Source of the DNA: Gammaproteobacteria bacterium
GTDB lineage: Bacteria > Pseudomonadota > Gammaproteobacteria > Arenicellales > UBA868
DNA: 34,180 bases
Assembly: GCA_011523045.1 (NCBI GenBank)
Contig: WTHR01000160.1
Location: 1 to 34,180 of the forward strand
Direction: 5' to 3'
This document shows positions 14,142 to 34,056 of this stretch, in pieces. Numbering within the stretch: position 1 is the first letter of the stretch; every line of letters begins with the position of its first letter. A program made the translations under genes and the position numbers. The notes under the pieces were generated by a model. That model had not been told where the DNA came from. It searched no databases and was given only the letters and a program-made list of their open reading frames with translations.

Positions 14142-15209
14142 TCAGTCCGAAAGAAGTTTAGAGAGTTCAACAGGCCAGGTTAAAGTGACTTTATCGCCGA
14201 CGTTTGACTTAACACTCTGAGATTTGGCTTCCAAGATGACGGGTTTTTGTAAGCCTACGTCGACGAAAAGACGAGTGAGATTGCCAGCGAATGTGCGTCC
14301 TGAGATTACACCCGCTAGATGATTCATATCGCTAGATGATTCGATGGAATTTTTCAGGCCGATATCCTCTGGCCGGACGCCGATAGATAGCGACTCGCCA
14401 CGGCCAGCAAGATTGACGGGCACACGTACCGTCTGATCGAGCCCGTCCAGCTTGATATTTCCTGTCTCAGGCTCGTAACTATTGGCGTCAAAGAGGTTAA
14501 TCTGTCCAACAAAGTCTGCGACGAATCGGGTTCTTGGTTCGTTATAGATGTCTTCTGCGCCACCCATTTGCTCTATTCGCCCCGAGTTCATCACAACGAT
14601 GCGATCAGACATATTCATAGCCTCAGTCTGGTCATGCGTGACGTAGACGGTAGTAATCGCTAGCTCTTGTTGAATACGCCGTAGTTCGATTTGCATCGTT
14701 TCACGTAATTTCAGATCGAGTGCGCCTAGAGGTTCATCCATGAGGAGAACCTTAGGGGGATATGCGACAGCACGAGCAACCGCGATTCGTTGCTGCTGAC
14801 CTCCACTCACCTCAGCAGGATAGCGATCATGAACCTCAGGTAGTCGAATGAGGTCCAGTAACTCTTCAACACGATCATTAATATCCTGTTTTGGATAGCG
14901 TCGCTCCTTGAGTCCGAATCCAATGTTTTCAGCAATTGTCATGTGAGGAAACAAAGCGTAATCCTGAAACACCATGCCGATTTCTCGGTGCTGGGGTGCG
15001 ACCTGCGTCACGTCTTCATCCCCAAGAAGAATCTTTCCTTCCGTAGGCTCGATAAAGCCCGCAATAAGCCGCAGAGTGGTTGTCTTGCCGCAGCCGGAAG
15101 GCCCAAGCAACGTGAGAAATTCACCTTCCTGAATTTCAAGATCTAATTCATGCAGGGCGACAAAATCACCAAAGGATTTTCTAACACCTTTTAGGAGAAC
15201 GCGTGACAT
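14142..15209 (-). CDS. ABC transporter ATP-binding protein, PotA-like
   Basis: LLGPSGCGKTTTLRLIAGF, VFQDYALFPHMTIAENIGFGL, VSGGQQQRIAVARA, VLLMDEPLGALD, plus C-terminal TOBE region (SIGVRPEDIGL). Confidence 0.95.
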   Translation of the reverse strand: MSRVLLKGVRKSFGDFVALHELDLEIQEGEFLTLLGPSGCGKTTTLRLIAGFIEPTEGKILLGDEDVTQVAPQHREIGMVFQDYALFPHMTIAENIGFGLKERRYPKQDINDRVEELLDLIRLPEVHDRYPAEVSGGQQQRIAVARAVAYPPKVLLMDEPLGALDLKLRETMQIELRRIQQELAITTVYVTHDQTEAMNMSDRIVVMNSGRIEQMGGAEDIYNEPRTRFVADFVGQINLFDANSYEPETGNIKLDGLDQTVRVPVNLAGRGESLSIGVRPEDIGLKNSIESSSDMNHLAGVISGRTFAGNLTRLFVDVGLQKPVILEAKSQSVKSNVGDKVTLTWPVELSKLLSD

Positions 15210-15232
15210 AGGAAATACTCGCTACTGGAGTG

Positions 15233-15272
15233 GCTCAAAAGCGGGCCGCCCGAGAACGGCCCACTTTTGAGC
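15233..15272. repeat. Long inverted repeat / hairpin between the SBP and ATPase genes
   Basis: GCTCAAAAG-c-GGGCCG (15233-15248) pairs with CGGCCC-a-CTTTTGAGC (15257-15272): 15 bp plus one C/A mismatch, 8-nt loop. Confidence 0.9.
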
Positions 15273-15302
15273 AATGGAAGCTAAGACAGCGTCAGATACT
15301 CG

Positions 15303-16376
15303 CTACTGAGAAACAGACCGGTTCCACTGGTCAATCCAGTCCGAGGTGTCAGCTTTTTGATAATCGATTTTCAACTGATTACCGATCTTGGCCGGGTCAA
15401 GTTCCAGCATCTCTGCAAAAATTGGATCACTAGCCAGCTGCGAAATTGACTTTCGGTTCGTGGGTACGACGCCACTTTTTACAGCATAAAGCATCTGAAA
15501 TTCAGGCTCTTGATACTCATTGATGAACCATGAAGCCGCCTCAGGGACTTTACTGTGCTTAGGAATCACGAGCCAACCATACTTGCCTACGCCGACATGG
15601 CTAGTTCCTGTGATGACAGGTTGGACGGTATCAACCGGTGAGCCAGCTTTGCGGGCTCTAAGGCACCAACCAGCGTGGACCACTGCCGCATAGACATCGC
15701 CTGACTCAAACTGGGTCACCACTTCTCCACCGCGAGACCAGAACTTCAAGGAGTTGAGACTTTTAATTACCTCAAGACCAGGCCCAACATTCTGCTCGTC
15801 TCCACCCGCTGCGTATGCAATTGCGCCAAAATTTGCGAATCCACCACCTGAAGTGATGTCTGGGATCACAACCCGACCGGCGAGTTTTTCATTCGCTAGG
15901 TCCTTGTAAGTTTTTGGAGCCGGCAGCCCCAGCTCGGCATATTTTTCACGGTTGTAGCAGATAACCTCTTGCGTGCTCCAGGATGCAACTCGCCAATCAT
16001 TGTACTGCCAGTCATCAAGGTATTCCTTGTTGGTGAGCTGGCTGAGATCAATTTTCTGTATCAGCTCATTGGTTTCAAAGAATTCCTTTTCCTGCGCGTC
16101 AAGCGTCTCCATTACGTCGAAAGGCGCTTTCCCACGAGCAGCAATCAGTTTGGCGAGATTGGCCTGAGGACTCCCGGTGACAAATTCAATCTTGCCGCCG
16201 AGGGCCTCAAATTTAGGCACGATTGCCTGCACCATGTTTTCTTTCCAAGAGCCACCCCAGGTGGCGACCCTTAATGTGACGCCGTCGAATTGACCAGCAA
16301 CACCGCTAGATGCGGTGAGTATCCCGACACTCAGAGCTGCGCTCTTTAGTATCAGGCTTGTGCGTTTAAGTTTCAT
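15303..16376 (-). CDS. Extracellular solute-binding protein, PotD-like (signal peptide present)
   Basis: N-terminal signal peptide MKLKRTSLILKSAALSVGILTASSGVAG, then LRVATWGGSWKENM typical of polyamine/Fe-type SBPs. Confidence 0.9.
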   Translation of the reverse strand: MKLKRTSLILKSAALSVGILTASSGVAGQFDGVTLRVATWGGSWKENMVQAIVPKFEALGGKIEFVTGSPQANLAKLIAARGKAPFDVMETLDAQEKEFFETNELIQKIDLSQLTNKEYLDDWQYNDWRVASWSTQEVICYNREKYAELGLPAPKTYKDLANEKLAGRVVIPDITSGGGFANFGAIAYAAGGDEQNVGPGLEVIKSLNSLKFWSRGGEVVTQFESGDVYAAVVHAGWCLRARKAGSPVDTVQPVITGTSHVGVGKYGWLVIPKHSKVPEAASWFINEYQEPEFQMLYAVKSGVVPTNRKSISQLASDPIFAEMLELDPAKIGNQLKIDYQKADTSDWIDQWNRSVSQ

Positions 16377-16431
16377 GATTATTCCTCTCCTATTTTTACG
16401 GGAAAATTAGACCACTCTTAGTTTGCAACAT

Positions 16432-17346
16432 TCATCTACTACCAGACCTCAACAAATTATCTAGACCAACAAGTTTCTGCATGCCGAGCAAAACCAGCAA
16501 ACAGAAAAATATGACTAGAGATGACGATGCCAATATGCTGGGATCAAAGTCATTCTCCATTCCATAAAACAGTTCGACCGGATAGGTGACGAATCCGGGC
16601 GCAGTAAGAAATATTGAGATGGGCACGTCCGCGAAAGACACCATGAAAGAGTAGAGTGCTCCCGCATAAACGCCCGGCATGATCACCGGGAGCGTCACTC
16701 GACGAAAAGTTCGCCATCGATTTGCGCCAAGGCTAAACGCCGCCTCTTCGAGTCGAACGTCAAACCGCTGCAGGATAGCAGTGACCGTTCCGACGACATA
16801 CGGTGTGGCCACGAACAGATGTCCAATGTAAAGCCCAATAAACGTTCCCTGAAAATAAAGTCCCGTTGCATCGCCAAAAAGATAATAAAGCTGCAAGAAG
16901 GCGATACCAGTAACGATCGCGGGTATTTGCAGGGGCGCACGAAAAACAGAGGAAATTACACTGCGTCCCGGCAGTTTCCCTCGGACAATACCTAACGCTG
17001 CAGGAATTCCGATGATGCACGCTCCCAATGCTGCCAGAGTAGCCAGTCCAAAACTGAGCGCGAGCGCCTTGAACTGTGCGGTGGGAATTTTTGTGTACCA
17101 CTGAAGTGAAGGGTCGTCAGGGGGGAACTTGATCGCTGTGTAGTATTCGCCTCCGTGAAAAGAAGCCCCGATCACCACAATCATCGGCGACAACAGAAAT
17201 ATGTATGACAGGGCGCAGTAAATGTAATGCCCGAGTTTCCCCCATGGATAGCCACGCTTTGGTGGAGGACCCTTGCGCCGTCTTTGGGCAATACGGGATA
17301 ACGAGTCCGAACTAGCGTCTCGAGAGAGTTGCGCGCTGGAACTCAT
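16432..17346 (-). CDS. ABC transporter permease, PotC-like (start at 17346, not 17634)
   Basis: EAAFSLGANRWRTFRRVTLPVIMPGVYAGALYSF is the EAA motif of inner-membrane permeases; start ATG 17346-17344 overlaps the TAA of the upstream permease. Confidence 0.92.
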   Translation of the reverse strand: MSSSAQLSRDASSDSLSRIAQRRRKGPPPKRGYPWGKLGHYIYCALSYIFLLSPMIVVIGASFHGGEYYTAIKFPPDDPSLQWYTKIPTAQFKALALSFGLATLAALGACIIGIPAALGIVRGKLPGRSVISSVFRAPLQIPAIVTGIAFLQLYYLFGDATGLYFQGTFIGLYIGHLFVATPYVVGTVTAILQRFDVRLEEAAFSLGANRWRTFRRVTLPVIMPGVYAGALYSFMVSFADVPISIFLTAPGFVTYPVELFYGMENDFDPSILASSSLVIFFCLLVLLGMQKLVGLDNLLRSGSR

Positions 17347-18200
17347 TAAGCAATTACCAGTCTCGCCGACCGCAGTCGTCGAATCAGATAGATCGATAGG
17401 AGATTGATCAGCAACACAGTCACAAGCAACACAGCGGCTAAGGTGCCGGCCATAGAGTATTTGATCTCCATCATCACTGTTCGCTGAATGAGGACGGGAA
17501 GAGTAAAGACTCTTCCGCCGCCCAATAGTGCGGCGGATGTAAATGCCCCCATGCACATGTTGAAGATCATGAGGACGCCAACCGTGACACCGGGCAGGCT
17601 CAATGGAAACAGCACACGGAGATGCATGCGCCATCGACTGGCCCCGTGAATTTGGGCCGCGTCTTCAAGGGATCTCGGAATCGTCTGAATAACGCTATAG
17701 AGAAGTAGCACTCCGAAGCCCAACGTAAAGTGCATCAAACCAACAACCACACCAGTTTGATTTCCTATAATTGTGTAGGGGGTGTCGACGATTCCCAGCC
17801 CCATCAGCGCCTGGTTAACTAAGCCATCTGCGGAAAATATGATGATCAGACCAAACACCTTGATTACGATCGTGACAAATGTGGCAACAACAATTCCTGC
17901 AAGCAGAATCATCGACCATTTAGATTGCATCCGCGCTATCAGGTACGCCACCGGAAAACCGAGCGTCAGCGTAAAAAGAGCGGCCAGTCCTGATGTCTTT
18001 ACCGTTATCCAGAGCGTGTGCAGGTAGAAGGAGTCTGTGAAGAACCGAAGGTAATTGACCATGCTTGCGGTATCACTAATCCTCCCCAAGCCGAGATCCT
18101 TAAAGAAACTGCCTTTCAGAAATACATACTGACTGGCGACGATCAGCAATCCCACAATGAGAAAACTTGGCAGCAGTACGTATTCCCAGCGTGTTTTCAT
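17346..18200 (-). CDS. ABC transporter permease, PotB-like
   Basis: EDAAQIHGASRWRMHLRVLFPLSLPGVTVGVLMIF EAA motif; about 6 hydrophobic segments. Confidence 0.92.
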   Translation of the reverse strand: MKTRWEYVLLPSFLIVGLLIVASQYVFLKGSFFKDLGLGRISDTASMVNYLRFFTDSFYLHTLWITVKTSGLAALFTLTLGFPVAYLIARMQSKWSMILLAGIVVATFVTIVIKVFGLIIIFSADGLVNQALMGLGIVDTPYTIIGNQTGVVVGLMHFTLGFGVLLLYSVIQTIPRSLEDAAQIHGASRWRMHLRVLFPLSLPGVTVGVLMIFNMCMGAFTSAALLGGGRVFTLPVLIQRTVMMEIKYSMAGTLAAVLLVTVLLINLLSIYLIRRLRSARLVIA

Positions 18201-18231
18201 GATCGTCTGACTAGTGAATTAGTGTGTTAAT

Positions 18232-19632
18232 TCAAGTGTCGCCACAATGCGCCGTAAAGCGCGTGTCATTCTTGAGAGTTCTTAGTTTTGACTCGATGAA
18301 TGATGCCCGTTCATCTCCGCCCAGAGTGTCACCCTCAAATACGATTTCCATGACAGCGTCGGTGACATCCTTTAGTAGTTGCTCATCATCAGAAGGGTGA
18401 ATCGGTATCGGCAACACGGTATCTTGAGTATGGGTAAGAAATTCCTCGCCCGCCCTTTCTGACTCGGGGAGACGCTCGCCGGCTTGAATGGCTCGAATCG
18501 CTCGTCTTAACTTGCGTCGCAGATAGGCCACGCCTTTATCGGTAGAGCCCAGGTTTTCCGCGGCGTGAGCATTGATCGAGCCCTGGGATACCTGCGCCTC
18601 GTAGTCGTTGGGATGCCTTTGCCGATATTCGTACGGTTCTTGTCCTGTTTGACCTGGGAAATCCACTGAATTTTTCCCAACCATAGATCAATCACCTTGA
18701 CCCTCAGGATCGACACCGGGCCCAAAGCTTCGCCACGCAATAATCATGCAGTTTTCGTTGTCGTGTGGAATCGTCCACTTCGTGATGCTGGCTCGCTTGA
18801 AGTACTTTTCTTCACGACCTGTCTCCCACCATGCTCCCACTTGGCTAAATGAAGGCGAGATGGTTTCCTGTGACCGCACCCAGATTTTGTCCTCAATACG
18901 ATAGGTGAGCGTTGCATAAATCTTGTGGGGTTTTTCGTAAAACTGGGTTACAGGAGCAATACCCCAGGTATCACCGAAATGAATATCAGTCACTCGCGCA
19001 TGTAGAAATACGGTGTGCCAGGGATCCATTGTGTTTTCGCAAATTTGAAGCCAGTTGCAGGGATAATGAATCGAGTAAGGCACCATTTCGACGTCAGGCA
19101 ACATCGTTGTGTCCCATTTAGGGAAATCAGGTTGCTCGTCAGGAGGCCCCATATAGGCAAAAATTAGACCAAGATATTCAACGACAGGATAAGCCCCGTG
19201 ACATATCTTCTCGCTTAGTTTCGAATCTTGAGCTGGTGTTTCGAGAATGGTGCCATCAACGTCATAGAGCCAGCCGTGGTAGCAACATCTGAGACCTTGT
19301 TCCTCGATCACACCAAACTCAAGAGAAGCGTTGCGGTGACTGCAGTGGAGATGCAATAGCCCCAGTGTTCCCTGTTTGTTACGAAACACAACAAGGTCTT
19401 CGCCGAGAATGCGAATACGAAGAGGCACATCGCTGAGTTCACTGCCGAGTGCAACGGGGATCCAGAACCGACGAAAATACTCGCCGCAGGGCGTCCCCGG
19501 GCCTACGTGCGTAAGTTCGTTATCTTCAATAGGCCGCTTTGCTTTGTGGTATCCACCGAAGGCGACTTGAATATTATTTTTATAACTTCTCGTTTCCTTG
19601 AGGTAGGCGCTTTGTGGTAAATCGTTTGACAA
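18232..19632 (-). pseudogene. Rieske [2Fe-2S] aromatic ring-hydroxylating oxygenase alpha subunit (phthalate/phenoxybenzoate dioxygenase-type), interrupted by one in-frame TGA at 18690-18688; either a nonsense-split gene or two polypeptides (19632-18688 and 18684-18232)
   Basis: Rieske CSHRNASLEFG...CCYHGW and mononuclear-iron ENTMDPWHTVFLH in the first ORF; C-terminal LGSTDKGVAYLRRKLRRAI in the second. Same frame: ...GGT GAT TGA TCT ATG GTT.... Only one stop separates the halves; the intact paralog at 32716-34056 has the equivalent region continuous. Confidence 0.88.
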
Positions 19633-19847
19633 TGAGAGGGTCCTCGTGAGAAATCCTGTTTTAAGTTCGATTTAAATTAAACAATGATTCTTATGTTCGT
19701 AGGGGGGATTAGTTGCCAAGCGTTAATTAACTACCTGTCAGATTGGGAAGTCGATTGGTGGAAACCCGATTTGATATAGGACATCTACCCATTACAAAAA
19801 ATGTGGTAATAAATAAACTCCCCCAGTAGCCAGAGGTGCCGATTGAA

Positions 19848-20837
19848 ATGCCAATTAGAAGCGATTCATCAGCCTTTCGTATTGCCTGTGCGGTGTCTAT
19901 GGGTATGAGCGCTATTCGACAGGAATTGGCCACGATCTCTCAAGTTGAGATTGTTGATCTCTCTCCGCGTTCCGAAGGCATTGGGATTGATCATGAATGC
20001 CGAGGCTTAGTGATTTATGCGAGCCAATTCTCTTCGTCAATAGTAGATTGGATTCACAAAAATCCTCTGGAGTGGATTCATTTGGTTACTGCGGGCTCCG
20101 ATCCACTAGATGCCATAAATATTTCCGATAGTCTTCATCTTTCGTCAAGCGGTCATTTATGGGCGGGCACAGTTGCAGAGCATGCGCTAGCAATGCTCCT
20201 TACATTAAGTCGGGGGATGAATGTCAGCATTCAGACAATTCAAACTGATCAATGGTCTCGCGAAGAGATCATTTCTCGACTTCACAGGATTAAAGATCTC
20301 AACTTTTTAGTTGTAGGGTATGGCCGAATTGGCTCTAAGATTGGGGCAAGCGTGAAGAATCTTGGCGCTCAGGTAACAGGGGTCGCCTTAACAGAACGAA
20401 GTGTTGACGGCATCAGCGTCTATAAAATGGCGGATCTTGACACTCTCATACCTCACGCCGACGTGATTTTTCTTTCAGTTCCTCTTAACCCTCAAACTCA
20501 TCACCTGATTTCAAAAGTTCAGTTTGATTTGATGAGAAAAAGTGTGTTCCTGATTAATGTTTCGCGAGGGGGTGTTTTGGATGAAGAAGCCCTTTATCAA
20601 ACTTTAGTCAACGGGAAACTCAGGGGTGCTGGACTCGACGTATTTGAGAATGAGCCGTTGCCGCTCAAGCACCCGCTACGATCACTGGATAATGTTCTGC
20701 TGACCCCTCATGTGGCGGGATTTGGAGAAAAAGATATTCAGCAAGCGGTTGCCCAAAACGTGAGAGATAATCTTCTGGACATTCTGGCTGGTCGCCCACC
20801 GAGAGACCAGATAAGCATAGGTCCAAAAACACAATGA
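19848..20837 (+). CDS. D-2-hydroxyacid dehydrogenase family protein (ATG 19848 or GTG 19836)
   Basis: VVGYGRIGSKIG nucleotide fold; catalytic NVSRGGVLDEEAL (Arg), GLDVFENEPLP (Glu), LTPHVAGF (His). AGAGG upstream of ATG 19848. Confidence 0.9.
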   Translation: MPIRSDSSAFRIACAVSMGMSAIRQELATISQVEIVDLSPRSEGIGIDHECRGLVIYASQFSSSIVDWIHKNPLEWIHLVTAGSDPLDAINISDSLHLSSSGHLWAGTVAEHALAMLLTLSRGMNVSIQTIQTDQWSREEIISRLHRIKDLNFLVVGYGRIGSKIGASVKNLGAQVTGVALTERSVDGISVYKMADLDTLIPHADVIFLSVPLNPQTHHLISKVQFDLMRKSVFLINVSRGGVLDEEALYQTLVNGKLRGAGLDVFENEPLPLKHPLRSLDNVLLTPHVAGFGEKDIQQAVAQNVRDNLLDILAGRPPRDQISIGPKTQ

Positions 20838-20849
20838 AAGATTCCAATC

Positions 20850-21575
20850 ATGAATGATCAGTTCACGCTGGTGACAGGAGCCAGTAAGGGTATCGGGCGG
20901 GCCTGCGCTGAGCGATTAGCTGGCGCCGGATTCAACGTTATCGGTCTTGCCAGAAAACAGCCTAGTGAGGAGTTTCCGGGGGAGTTTTATGAAGTAGATG
21001 TTGCTGACAGGGAAGCTTTGACAGCCTTTCTTAAGTGGCTCACTAAAGAAAAGCCGGTGGTGAATCTGATCAACAACGTTGGTCTAGCGGGTCCAGAATT
21101 GCTCCAAGATGTTACTTCCGAGACTTTGGATCGAGTGATAGAAACTAATCTGGTCTCCGCGATTCTCTGCGCAAAATATTGCAGTGGGGCAATGAAAAAA
21201 TCTAGGCAAGGCAGAATTATCAACATCTCAACTGAACTTATTCTTGGGGCTCCGACCCGAACCGCTTATGGCGGTGCAAAAGCAGCTTTGGCAAGTGTTT
21301 CGAGAACTTGGGCGCTGGAACTTGCGCAATTTGGCATTACCGTCAATACGATCGCGCCTGGCCCAGTGGATACAGAGTTTTTTCTTCAGAATAATCCTGT
21401 GGGTAGTGATATTCGACAGCAGAAGTTGGATCGGATTCCACTTGGTCGATTTGCAACCCCCGCAGACATCGCCAATCTCGCTAATTTTTTAATGTCGCCC
21501 GAGGCGGCCTACATCACGGGCCAGATCTTCCATATTGATGGCGGCTCAAGTATTGCGAGTGCACCCCTGTTTTAG
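20850..21575 (+). CDS. SDR family NAD(P)-dependent oxidoreductase
   Basis: TGASKGIGRA, NNVG, YGGAKAAL (YxxxK), PGPVDTEF, ITGQIFHIDGG. Confidence 0.93.
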   Translation: MNDQFTLVTGASKGIGRACAERLAGAGFNVIGLARKQPSEEFPGEFYEVDVADREALTAFLKWLTKEKPVVNLINNVGLAGPELLQDVTSETLDRVIETNLVSAILCAKYCSGAMKKSRQGRIINISTELILGAPTRTAYGGAKAALASVSRTWALELAQFGITVNTIAPGPVDTEFFLQNNPVGSDIRQQKLDRIPLGRFATPADIANLANFLMSPEAAYITGQIFHIDGGSSIASAPLF

Positions 21576-31696: not shown

Positions 31697-32719
31697 TCAA
31701 TAGCCCAGCGCCGTATTTACCTGATTCTCGAGAGCCTCGCCCCGAATGAGTCTTCGCATGTTATTGAAGAAAACGTCAAGGGTTAAGGAGACATACGCGT
31801 TGCCATCGTCTGCAGAGACATGGGGCGTGATCACGAGATTGGGTTGAGCCCATAGAGCGGATTCAGACGGCAGGGGTTCAGGGTCAAAAACATCAAGTAC
31901 CGCTCCTCCAATGGCACCGGAGTCAAGACCTTCGACCAGGGCTGCGTAGTCAACCACAGCTGCACGACCGATGTTGACGAGCCCTGCGCCCGGCTTGAGT
32001 AAGCGTAGTCGCCTCGCATCAAGCAGGTTTTCGGTTTCAGGGGTGAGGGGAGTGACCACGAAGACAAAGTCGCCCCGCGGCAGCACGCGATCAAGCTCTT
32101 CAACCGGAAGGGATTCATCCAGTTCCGGAAGCATGTTGCCATGTCGTGAGACTCCGATCACGTGGATCCCCAGACTTTGAGCATGCTTGGCGACAGCACG
32201 GCCGATGCTGCCTGTGCCGATAAGAACCAATGTCTTTCCTGCAATGGGGGTTGAATACAACGAGTCGTAGCATGCCCGAATCTGGTTCGTCATGATCTTG
32301 GGCATATGGTTATGCAGCATCAGGATGCTCATGATCCCGAATTCACCGCCCTTGGCCGCATGTACCCCTTTATTGTTCGTCAGTATGACCCCGTCGGGCA
32401 GCCAATCCATCGGCGTCAAGTGCTCAACGCCCGCTCCTATGATATGAATCCACTTTAGCCGCGGCGCCACTTCGGCGAGGTTCTCTGTGGGCAGATCCCA
32501 CGTCACCAGCGCATCAGCGGTGGCCATATGGGAATTAAAATTTTCGGTATCCCAGTCGATTGATACCTCGATCTCAGCCAAGACGTCGGGGTGTGCCTTT
32601 GCCGCAGTATCAAATCGCTCCTGGGTGATGGTGAAAACTTCCTCACCTTCTGCCGTATTCGGAAAGGTGTCGTGTCGGTAATGATTGTTTTTGATGTGAA
32701 CCTGATACATTGATCTCAT
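31697..32719 (-). CDS. D-2-hydroxyacid dehydrogenase family protein
   Basis: LIGTGSIGRAVAKHAQSLG; NIGRAAVVDYAAL (Arg), VLDVFDPEPLP (Glu), ITPHVSA (His). ATGA overlap with the upstream Rieske gene. Confidence 0.92.
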   Translation of the reverse strand: MRSMYQVHIKNNHYRHDTFPNTAEGEEVFTITQERFDTAAKAHPDVLAEIEVSIDWDTENFNSHMATADALVTWDLPTENLAEVAPRLKWIHIIGAGVEHLTPMDWLPDGVILTNNKGVHAAKGGEFGIMSILMLHNHMPKIMTNQIRACYDSLYSTPIAGKTLVLIGTGSIGRAVAKHAQSLGIHVIGVSRHGNMLPELDESLPVEELDRVLPRGDFVFVVTPLTPETENLLDARRLRLLKPGAGLVNIGRAAVVDYAALVEGLDSGAIGGAVLDVFDPEPLPSESALWAQPNLVITPHVSADDGNAYVSLTLDVFFNNMRRLIRGEALENQVNTALGY

Positions 32720-34056
32720 CCTAACTGCTGAAGTTGGGAAATGATCCTGTGATCCCGCTCAGGTGCGGGACCTTCATCGCAATCAAAAAGGATGTTCATG
32801 ACGCGATCTCCCGTTTCGCGCAGGAGTTGGTGATCATCGAATTCAGATGTTTCTGGTCGGTGCAGGACGGTATCGCTGCCATAGGTGGGAACAAACTCAG
32901 TGCCGAGGTCCGCGGGTTGGGGCGGCGCTTGTCCTTTCTCGAGGTTGCGTGCGAGCTGACGCAATTGGCGTCTATACAGGCTTACCCCCTTGTCACCCGG
33001 CAGCAGAAATTCCTTCTCCTGATCTGCGATGGATCCCATGCCTTCGACGGCCTCGACATCGCCCGGCCGTCTTTGACGTTCCTCATAGCTTCGATCAAGG
33101 ACTTCGCCCTGCTCGATGCGCTGCATACCCTCGAGTGTATTGAATTCGTGAGGGTCCGCGCGGTCTCCGAAGTTGCCCCAGGCAAAAGCCATCGTGTGTC
33201 GGTCATCCAAAGGCACGACCCAGCGGGTAAAAGCACTGCGTCCGAAATGCCGCAGCTGGGTACCGTCGCACGCAAATGCCGCACCAGCCTGGGTGAAGTT
33301 TGGCAGGATGAGTTCGTTGACTCGTACCCAGATATTCTCGCCGACCCGTCGGGAGGCGGTACCCAGGAATCGAATCTTGTCCCGATGATAGAACTCGATC
33401 GCACCCAGCTTTCCGAATCCGTCTGAGAACTGGGACTCATGGAGAAATGCTGTGTGAACTGGATCGACGATGGCATCGAGCACCTGGATCCAGTTACAGT
33501 TAAACGGCACGGCATACGGGGTCATCACGAGATCAGGAATTTCGTAGGTGTCATACAACGGAAACGCCGGAATCTCTTCCGGCGGGCCGAGGTAGGCAAA
33601 TAACAGTCCTCTGAACTCCCGAACCGGATAGGCACCCAGATGGATGTGCTCCATTGCGTGACGCACGTGTTCCGATCCTTGCGGTTCTCCAGGAATCTCA
33701 AGCACGGTACCGTCAATATCAAACACCCAGCCGTGATAACAACAGCGTATCCCATGCTGCTCGCATCGACCGAATTCGAGTGATGCCCGTCGATGTGGAC
33801 ATTTCTTGTGGACCAGTCCGTAGTTGCCGGAAAGATCCCTAAAGAGCACCAGTTCCTCTCCGAGGATGCGGATCAGTTTGGGCAGATCACCGACTTCATC
33901 AGCTATGTGAATGGGATGCCAGTACCGTCTCAGCAGTTCGCCGCTCGGGGTACCGGCGCCCACCTCGGTCAACTCCCGAAGGGATTCCCCTTCCCAGTTC
34001 TGGTGATAACCGCAATACGGGCCGGTCAGTTTGCGATCTTGAATAGAAGCCGTCAT
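32716..34056 (-). CDS. Rieske [2Fe-2S] aromatic ring-hydroxylating oxygenase alpha subunit, intact paralog
   Basis: CPHRRASLEFG...CCYHGW; DAIVDPVHTAFLH mononuclear-iron region; C-terminal GDKGVSLYRRQLRQLARN. Confidence 0.93.
   Translation of the reverse strand: MTASIQDRKLTGPYCGYHQNWEGESLRELTEVGAGTPSGELLRRYWHPIHIADEVGDLPKLIRILGEELVLFRDLSGNYGLVHKKCPHRRASLEFGRCEQHGIRCCYHGWVFDIDGTVLEIPGEPQGSEHVRHAMEHIHLGAYPVREFRGLLFAYLGPPEEIPAFPLYDTYEIPDLVMTPYAVPFNCNWIQVLDAIVDPVHTAFLHESQFSDGFGKLGAIEFYHRDKIRFLGTASRRVGENIWVRVNELILPNFTQAGAAFACDGTQLRHFGRSAFTRWVVPLDDRHTMAFAWGNFGDRADPHEFNTLEGMQRIEQGEVLDRSYEERQRRPGDVEAVEGMGSIADQEKEFLLPGDKGVSLYRRQLRQLARNLEKGQAPPQPADLGTEFVPTYGSDTVLHRPETSEFDDHQLLRETGDRVMNILFDCDEGPAPERDHRIISQLQQLG

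Follow-up and report, generated by a model that had tools for sequence, protein, structure and literature searches.

The interrupted gene and its neighbourhood

The window (the whole stretch of 34,180 nucleotides that was analysed) carries on its minus strand, from 19632 to 18232, a single 466-codon Rieske oxygenase frame when one internal TGA at 18690–18688 is read through. The first open reading frame (ORF) ends in GTC GAT CCT GAG GGT CAA GGT GAT TGA and is followed by TCT ATG GTT; the second is in the same frame, with its ATG two codons past the TGA. The original prediction of a gene split by one in-frame TGA, with AGGTGAT 6 nt before the ATG of a same-frame second ORF, was confirmed from the sequence and the ORF list. 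The TTG start of the first ORF is kept in the closest orthologs. The features of the locus are as follows.

18232–19632, minus strand: Rieske oxygenase gene, phthalate-dioxygenase-like, interrupted; uninterrupted orthologs are 98–70% identical
18688–19632, minus strand: N-terminal ORF, 314 amino acids, TTG start; Rieske [2Fe–2S] domain, catalytic β-sheet, D203, H206/H211
18688–18690, minus strand: TGA stop, codon 315; CGA, CGT or CGC (Arg) in 9/9 closest orthologs
18691–18697, minus strand: AGGTGAT, Shine–Dalgarno-like, within coding sequence; present too in intact L039 and L045
18232–18684, minus strand: C-terminal ORF, 150 amino acids from ATG; mainly helical, bears the third iron ligand D343
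18200–17346, minus strand: PotB/PotC-type permease, downstream of the oxygenase
17349–16432, minus strand: PotB/PotC-type permease, downstream
16376–15303, minus strand: solute-binding protein, downstream
15209–14142, minus strand: ABC ATPase, next in the window
19836–21575, plus strand: 2-hydroxyacid dehydrogenase and SDR genes, divergent; context kept in the closest relatives
32716–34056, minus strand: intact second Rieske oxygenase, about 43% identical to the broken copy, with a LigXa_C-like match

The oxygenase heads a conserved oxygenase/ABC-importer cassette: it is followed by the two permeases and the binding protein in like order in the orthologs (L040–L046 and L051). The region 14142–21575 thus joins a Rieske oxygenase with an ABC importer of the PotABCD/2-aminoethylphosphonate type, which suggests uptake and oxidation of one common compound. 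The transporter genes begin 31 nt past the oxygenase gene, and polarity on them may or may not occur. The whole 34 kb window aligns with a contig of a related genome (G010:C89) at 92.6%, and this comparison showed no stop within the body of any other conserved gene. The remaining flagged stops seem to belong to ORFs on the opposite strand or to upstream extensions.

The genome, a draft of 2.7 Mb in 250 contigs (about 90.5% completeness), is rich in such oxygenases, with 24 Rieske-domain matches, none of which has an internal stop in the domain. Redundancy was considered as a reason for tolerance of the stop and was rejected, since the closest paralogs in the genome are just 43–47% identical and none is an obvious replacement. 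Stops flagged inside paralogs at C208 and at position 32695 of the window are terminal stops. Across about 267 kb of the genome there are 22 candidate in-frame breaks, which may be no more than adjacent genes and give no genome-wide rate.

Domains, iron ligands and predicted structure

The first ORF matches PF00355 (62.7 bits, E 3.2e-17); the second ORF alone gave no Pfam or NCBIfam match. Residues C97, H99, C116, C117 and H119 are invariant, and the Rieske [2Fe–2S] pattern C-x-H-R...C-x-x-H is present. In an alignment of 24 relatives, D203, H206, H211 and D343 are invariant. The iron ligands of isophthalate dioxygenase (PDB entry 9INA) are H177, H182 and D337, with D174 as the bridge (PMC12445078). 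These four residues align with H206, H211, D343 and D203, respectively; counted from the alignment, they sit 23 residues further on in the deposited chain. Of the aligned positions, D203, H206 and H211 lie in the first ORF and D343 lies in the second. The intact orthologs have the 2-His-1-Asp mononuclear iron site and the bridging Asp on one chain, which the window copy does not.

An AlphaFold model of an intact ortholog (pLDDT 84.8, pTM 0.86) places residue 315 between the last catalytic strand (295–303) and helices beginning at residue 334 (334–339), with D343 at a helix start. The nearest solved structures to the model are phthalate dioxygenases (Foldseek E about 1e-26 to 1e-22, probability 1.00). 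As read from sequence and model, the 314-residue product would keep the Rieske centre together with the catalytic sheet and both iron-binding His residues. It would lack the third ligand and the helical C-terminal part and for this reason is expected to be inactive. The alpha-only phthalate and isophthalate dioxygenases of Comamonas testosteroni KF1 (PDB entries 7FJL, 7V25 and 7V28; 9INA and 9IOY) share the fold, the Rieske motif, and the order of the bridging Asp and the 2-His-1-Asp iron site with the window gene. They differ in that the window copy is broken ahead of the third ligand; identity is only about 24–26%, and the substrate is not inferable.

Codon 315 and selection in related genomes

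Orthologs were sought with the protein query in 60 relative genomes and a species-level genome collection, and clear orthologs were recovered in the same gene order. The nine closest (L039, L045, L040, L041, L042, L043, L044, L051 and L046) are 70–98% identical and lie in the same operon. Codon 315 is CGA in L039, L045, L040, L041 and L042 (five of the nine), CGT in L043, and CGC in L044, L051 and L046; no internal stop was found in any of the nine. The change in the window is a single transition, C to T within a CpG, from Arg315 CGA to TGA. An ortholog is present in four of the 20 genus genomes searched (the window's own included), and the stop is in the window's own genome only. No relatives were found in the viral contigs searched. 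The intact genes in related metagenome-assembled genomes (MAGs; L039, L045, L040, L041 and others) therefore differ from the window copy in having Arg where it has TGA, and they resemble it in operon order. The original prediction had held that a sense codon in all orthologs would make the stop an error or a strain-specific mutation; the alignment that it proposed returned Arg in 9/9.

Measured against L039, dN/dS is 0.046 before the stop and 0.051 after it. Values between intact genes range from 0.03 to 0.12, which covers both halves. Both halves are under equal purifying selection (dN/dS about 0.05), with no sign of decay. Apart from the stop, the 3′ half has seven synonymous changes and no nonsynonymous change that are private to the window. 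The proposed dN/dS check of the 3′ half and these counts bear out the earlier statement that a disruption, if there is one, is recent or tolerated. As in a pseudogene, the stop is absent from all orthologs and the frame is otherwise intact; relaxed selection after the stop, which a pseudogene might show, is not seen, as is expected if the stop is very recent or an error. The lack of decay is thus explained if the stop arose too recently for decay to follow, or if it is not real. It also fits a gene kept working by readthrough or restart, but if the gene were still in use the stop might then be expected elsewhere too.

Origin of the internal stop

Pairing with the 16S tail was scored with the gammaproteobacterial standard, which was assumed; the tail pattern was not found in the draft genome. 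The AGGTGAT–tail duplex is predicted at −11.4 kcal/mol, the strongest upstream of any start scored in the window. Window genes contain 626 in-frame start codons, of which 12 pair at least as strongly, and four of 599 codons that are one transition from a stop have such a start within seven codons downstream; the match of a Shine–Dalgarno sequence and a start after the stop is not very rare. The intact relatives L039 and L045 contain AAGGTGATCGATCTATG. In the three nearest intact genes the predicted duplex at this site reaches −14.0 kcal/mol, compared with −11.4 with the TGA. It is weaker in L041, a 92% ortholog (−9.1 kcal/mol), and in five more distant orthologs (L042–L044, L051 and L046) it falls to −2.9 to −5.7 kcal/mol, with the ATG and the Shine–Dalgarno sequence absent. 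As the closest intact genes have the stronger version of it, the site already existed and the stop weakened it. The Shine–Dalgarno sequence and ATG are chance coding sequence and did not arise to serve restart after the stop. Restart is physically possible and some C-terminal fragment might be made; there is no sign of selection for it. More generally, an internal Shine–Dalgarno sequence beside a premature stop can be accidental; in this case the closest relatives, which lack the stop, have the stronger one.

The probabilities expressed below are judgements and were not computed. Very probably this is an ordinary single-chain Rieske gene with either one private, recent nonsense change or a consensus-level sequence error, the two alternatives in the original prediction that are supported by a sense (Arg) codon in every close ortholog. 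We lean towards a real and very recent mutation in the strain or population. In that case a C to T change would have turned Arg315 CGA into TGA in the gene of a single-chain Rieske non-heme iron oxygenase, and translation would yield a 314-residue protein without the third iron ligand. An artefact, with CGA in the true strain sequence and a TGA that arose as an error of consensus or assembly, or was taken from a minority allele into the metagenome assembly, is a less likely but serious alternative. The draft state of the genome (250 contigs, about 90.5% complete) and a private single-base change with no decay nearby and no other broken gene in the vicinity are consistent with it; against it, base errors should a priori seldom land where they create a stop, and C to T at CpG is a common real mutation. 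Single-nonsense pseudogenes of bacteria likewise have a private one-base stop, an intact remaining frame and a split that is not conserved; the window gene differs from them in being too young to show decay, and it could yet be a sequence error.

A two-polypeptide oxygenase, with termination at the TGA, reinitiation at the ATG two codons on and assembly of the halves, is very improbable. The ATG does stand in frame behind the strongest Shine–Dalgarno pairing scored in the window, both halves are constrained, and the model puts the break in a loop region between the strand at 295–303 and the helix at 334–339. However, recency explains the constraint, the Shine–Dalgarno/ATG site predates the stop and is lost in distant orthologs, and neither the split with its restart signal is conserved in relatives nor the stop present in any other genome searched. 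With D343 in the second fragment as well, the termination–reinitiation proposal found no support. Slightly less probable still is that one base change made a split Rieske enzyme of two working chains in a single step by way of the pre-existing internal Shine–Dalgarno sequence and ATG. Readthrough of the TGA to a full-length enzyme by suppression, recoding or selenocysteine is likewise highly unlikely, and the suggestion of it gained no positive support. The frame is open and constrained on both sides of the stop, but the nine closest orthologs carry Arg and not Cys or Sec at the site. In this incomplete genome (about 90.5%), SelA was not found and no tRNA-Sec match exceeded the family cut-off. 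Shuffled sequences fold as well as the RNA around the stop (z −0.22), which gives no sign of a bSECIS-like hairpin, and TGA ends 14 of the 28 window genes; selenocysteine or recoding was rejected on these grounds. With the gene uninterrupted in all nine of the closest relatives, the break most likely reflects a recent mutation of an ordinary kind, or an error, and not a new two-piece enzyme.

Beyond annotation this has little significance; in sequence records both ORFs belong to one interrupted gene and should not be entered as a pair of genes or as a split enzyme. Three more window-private changes (codons 306–308; two silent, one I to V) form a small cluster at 18709–18717, just upstream of the stop.
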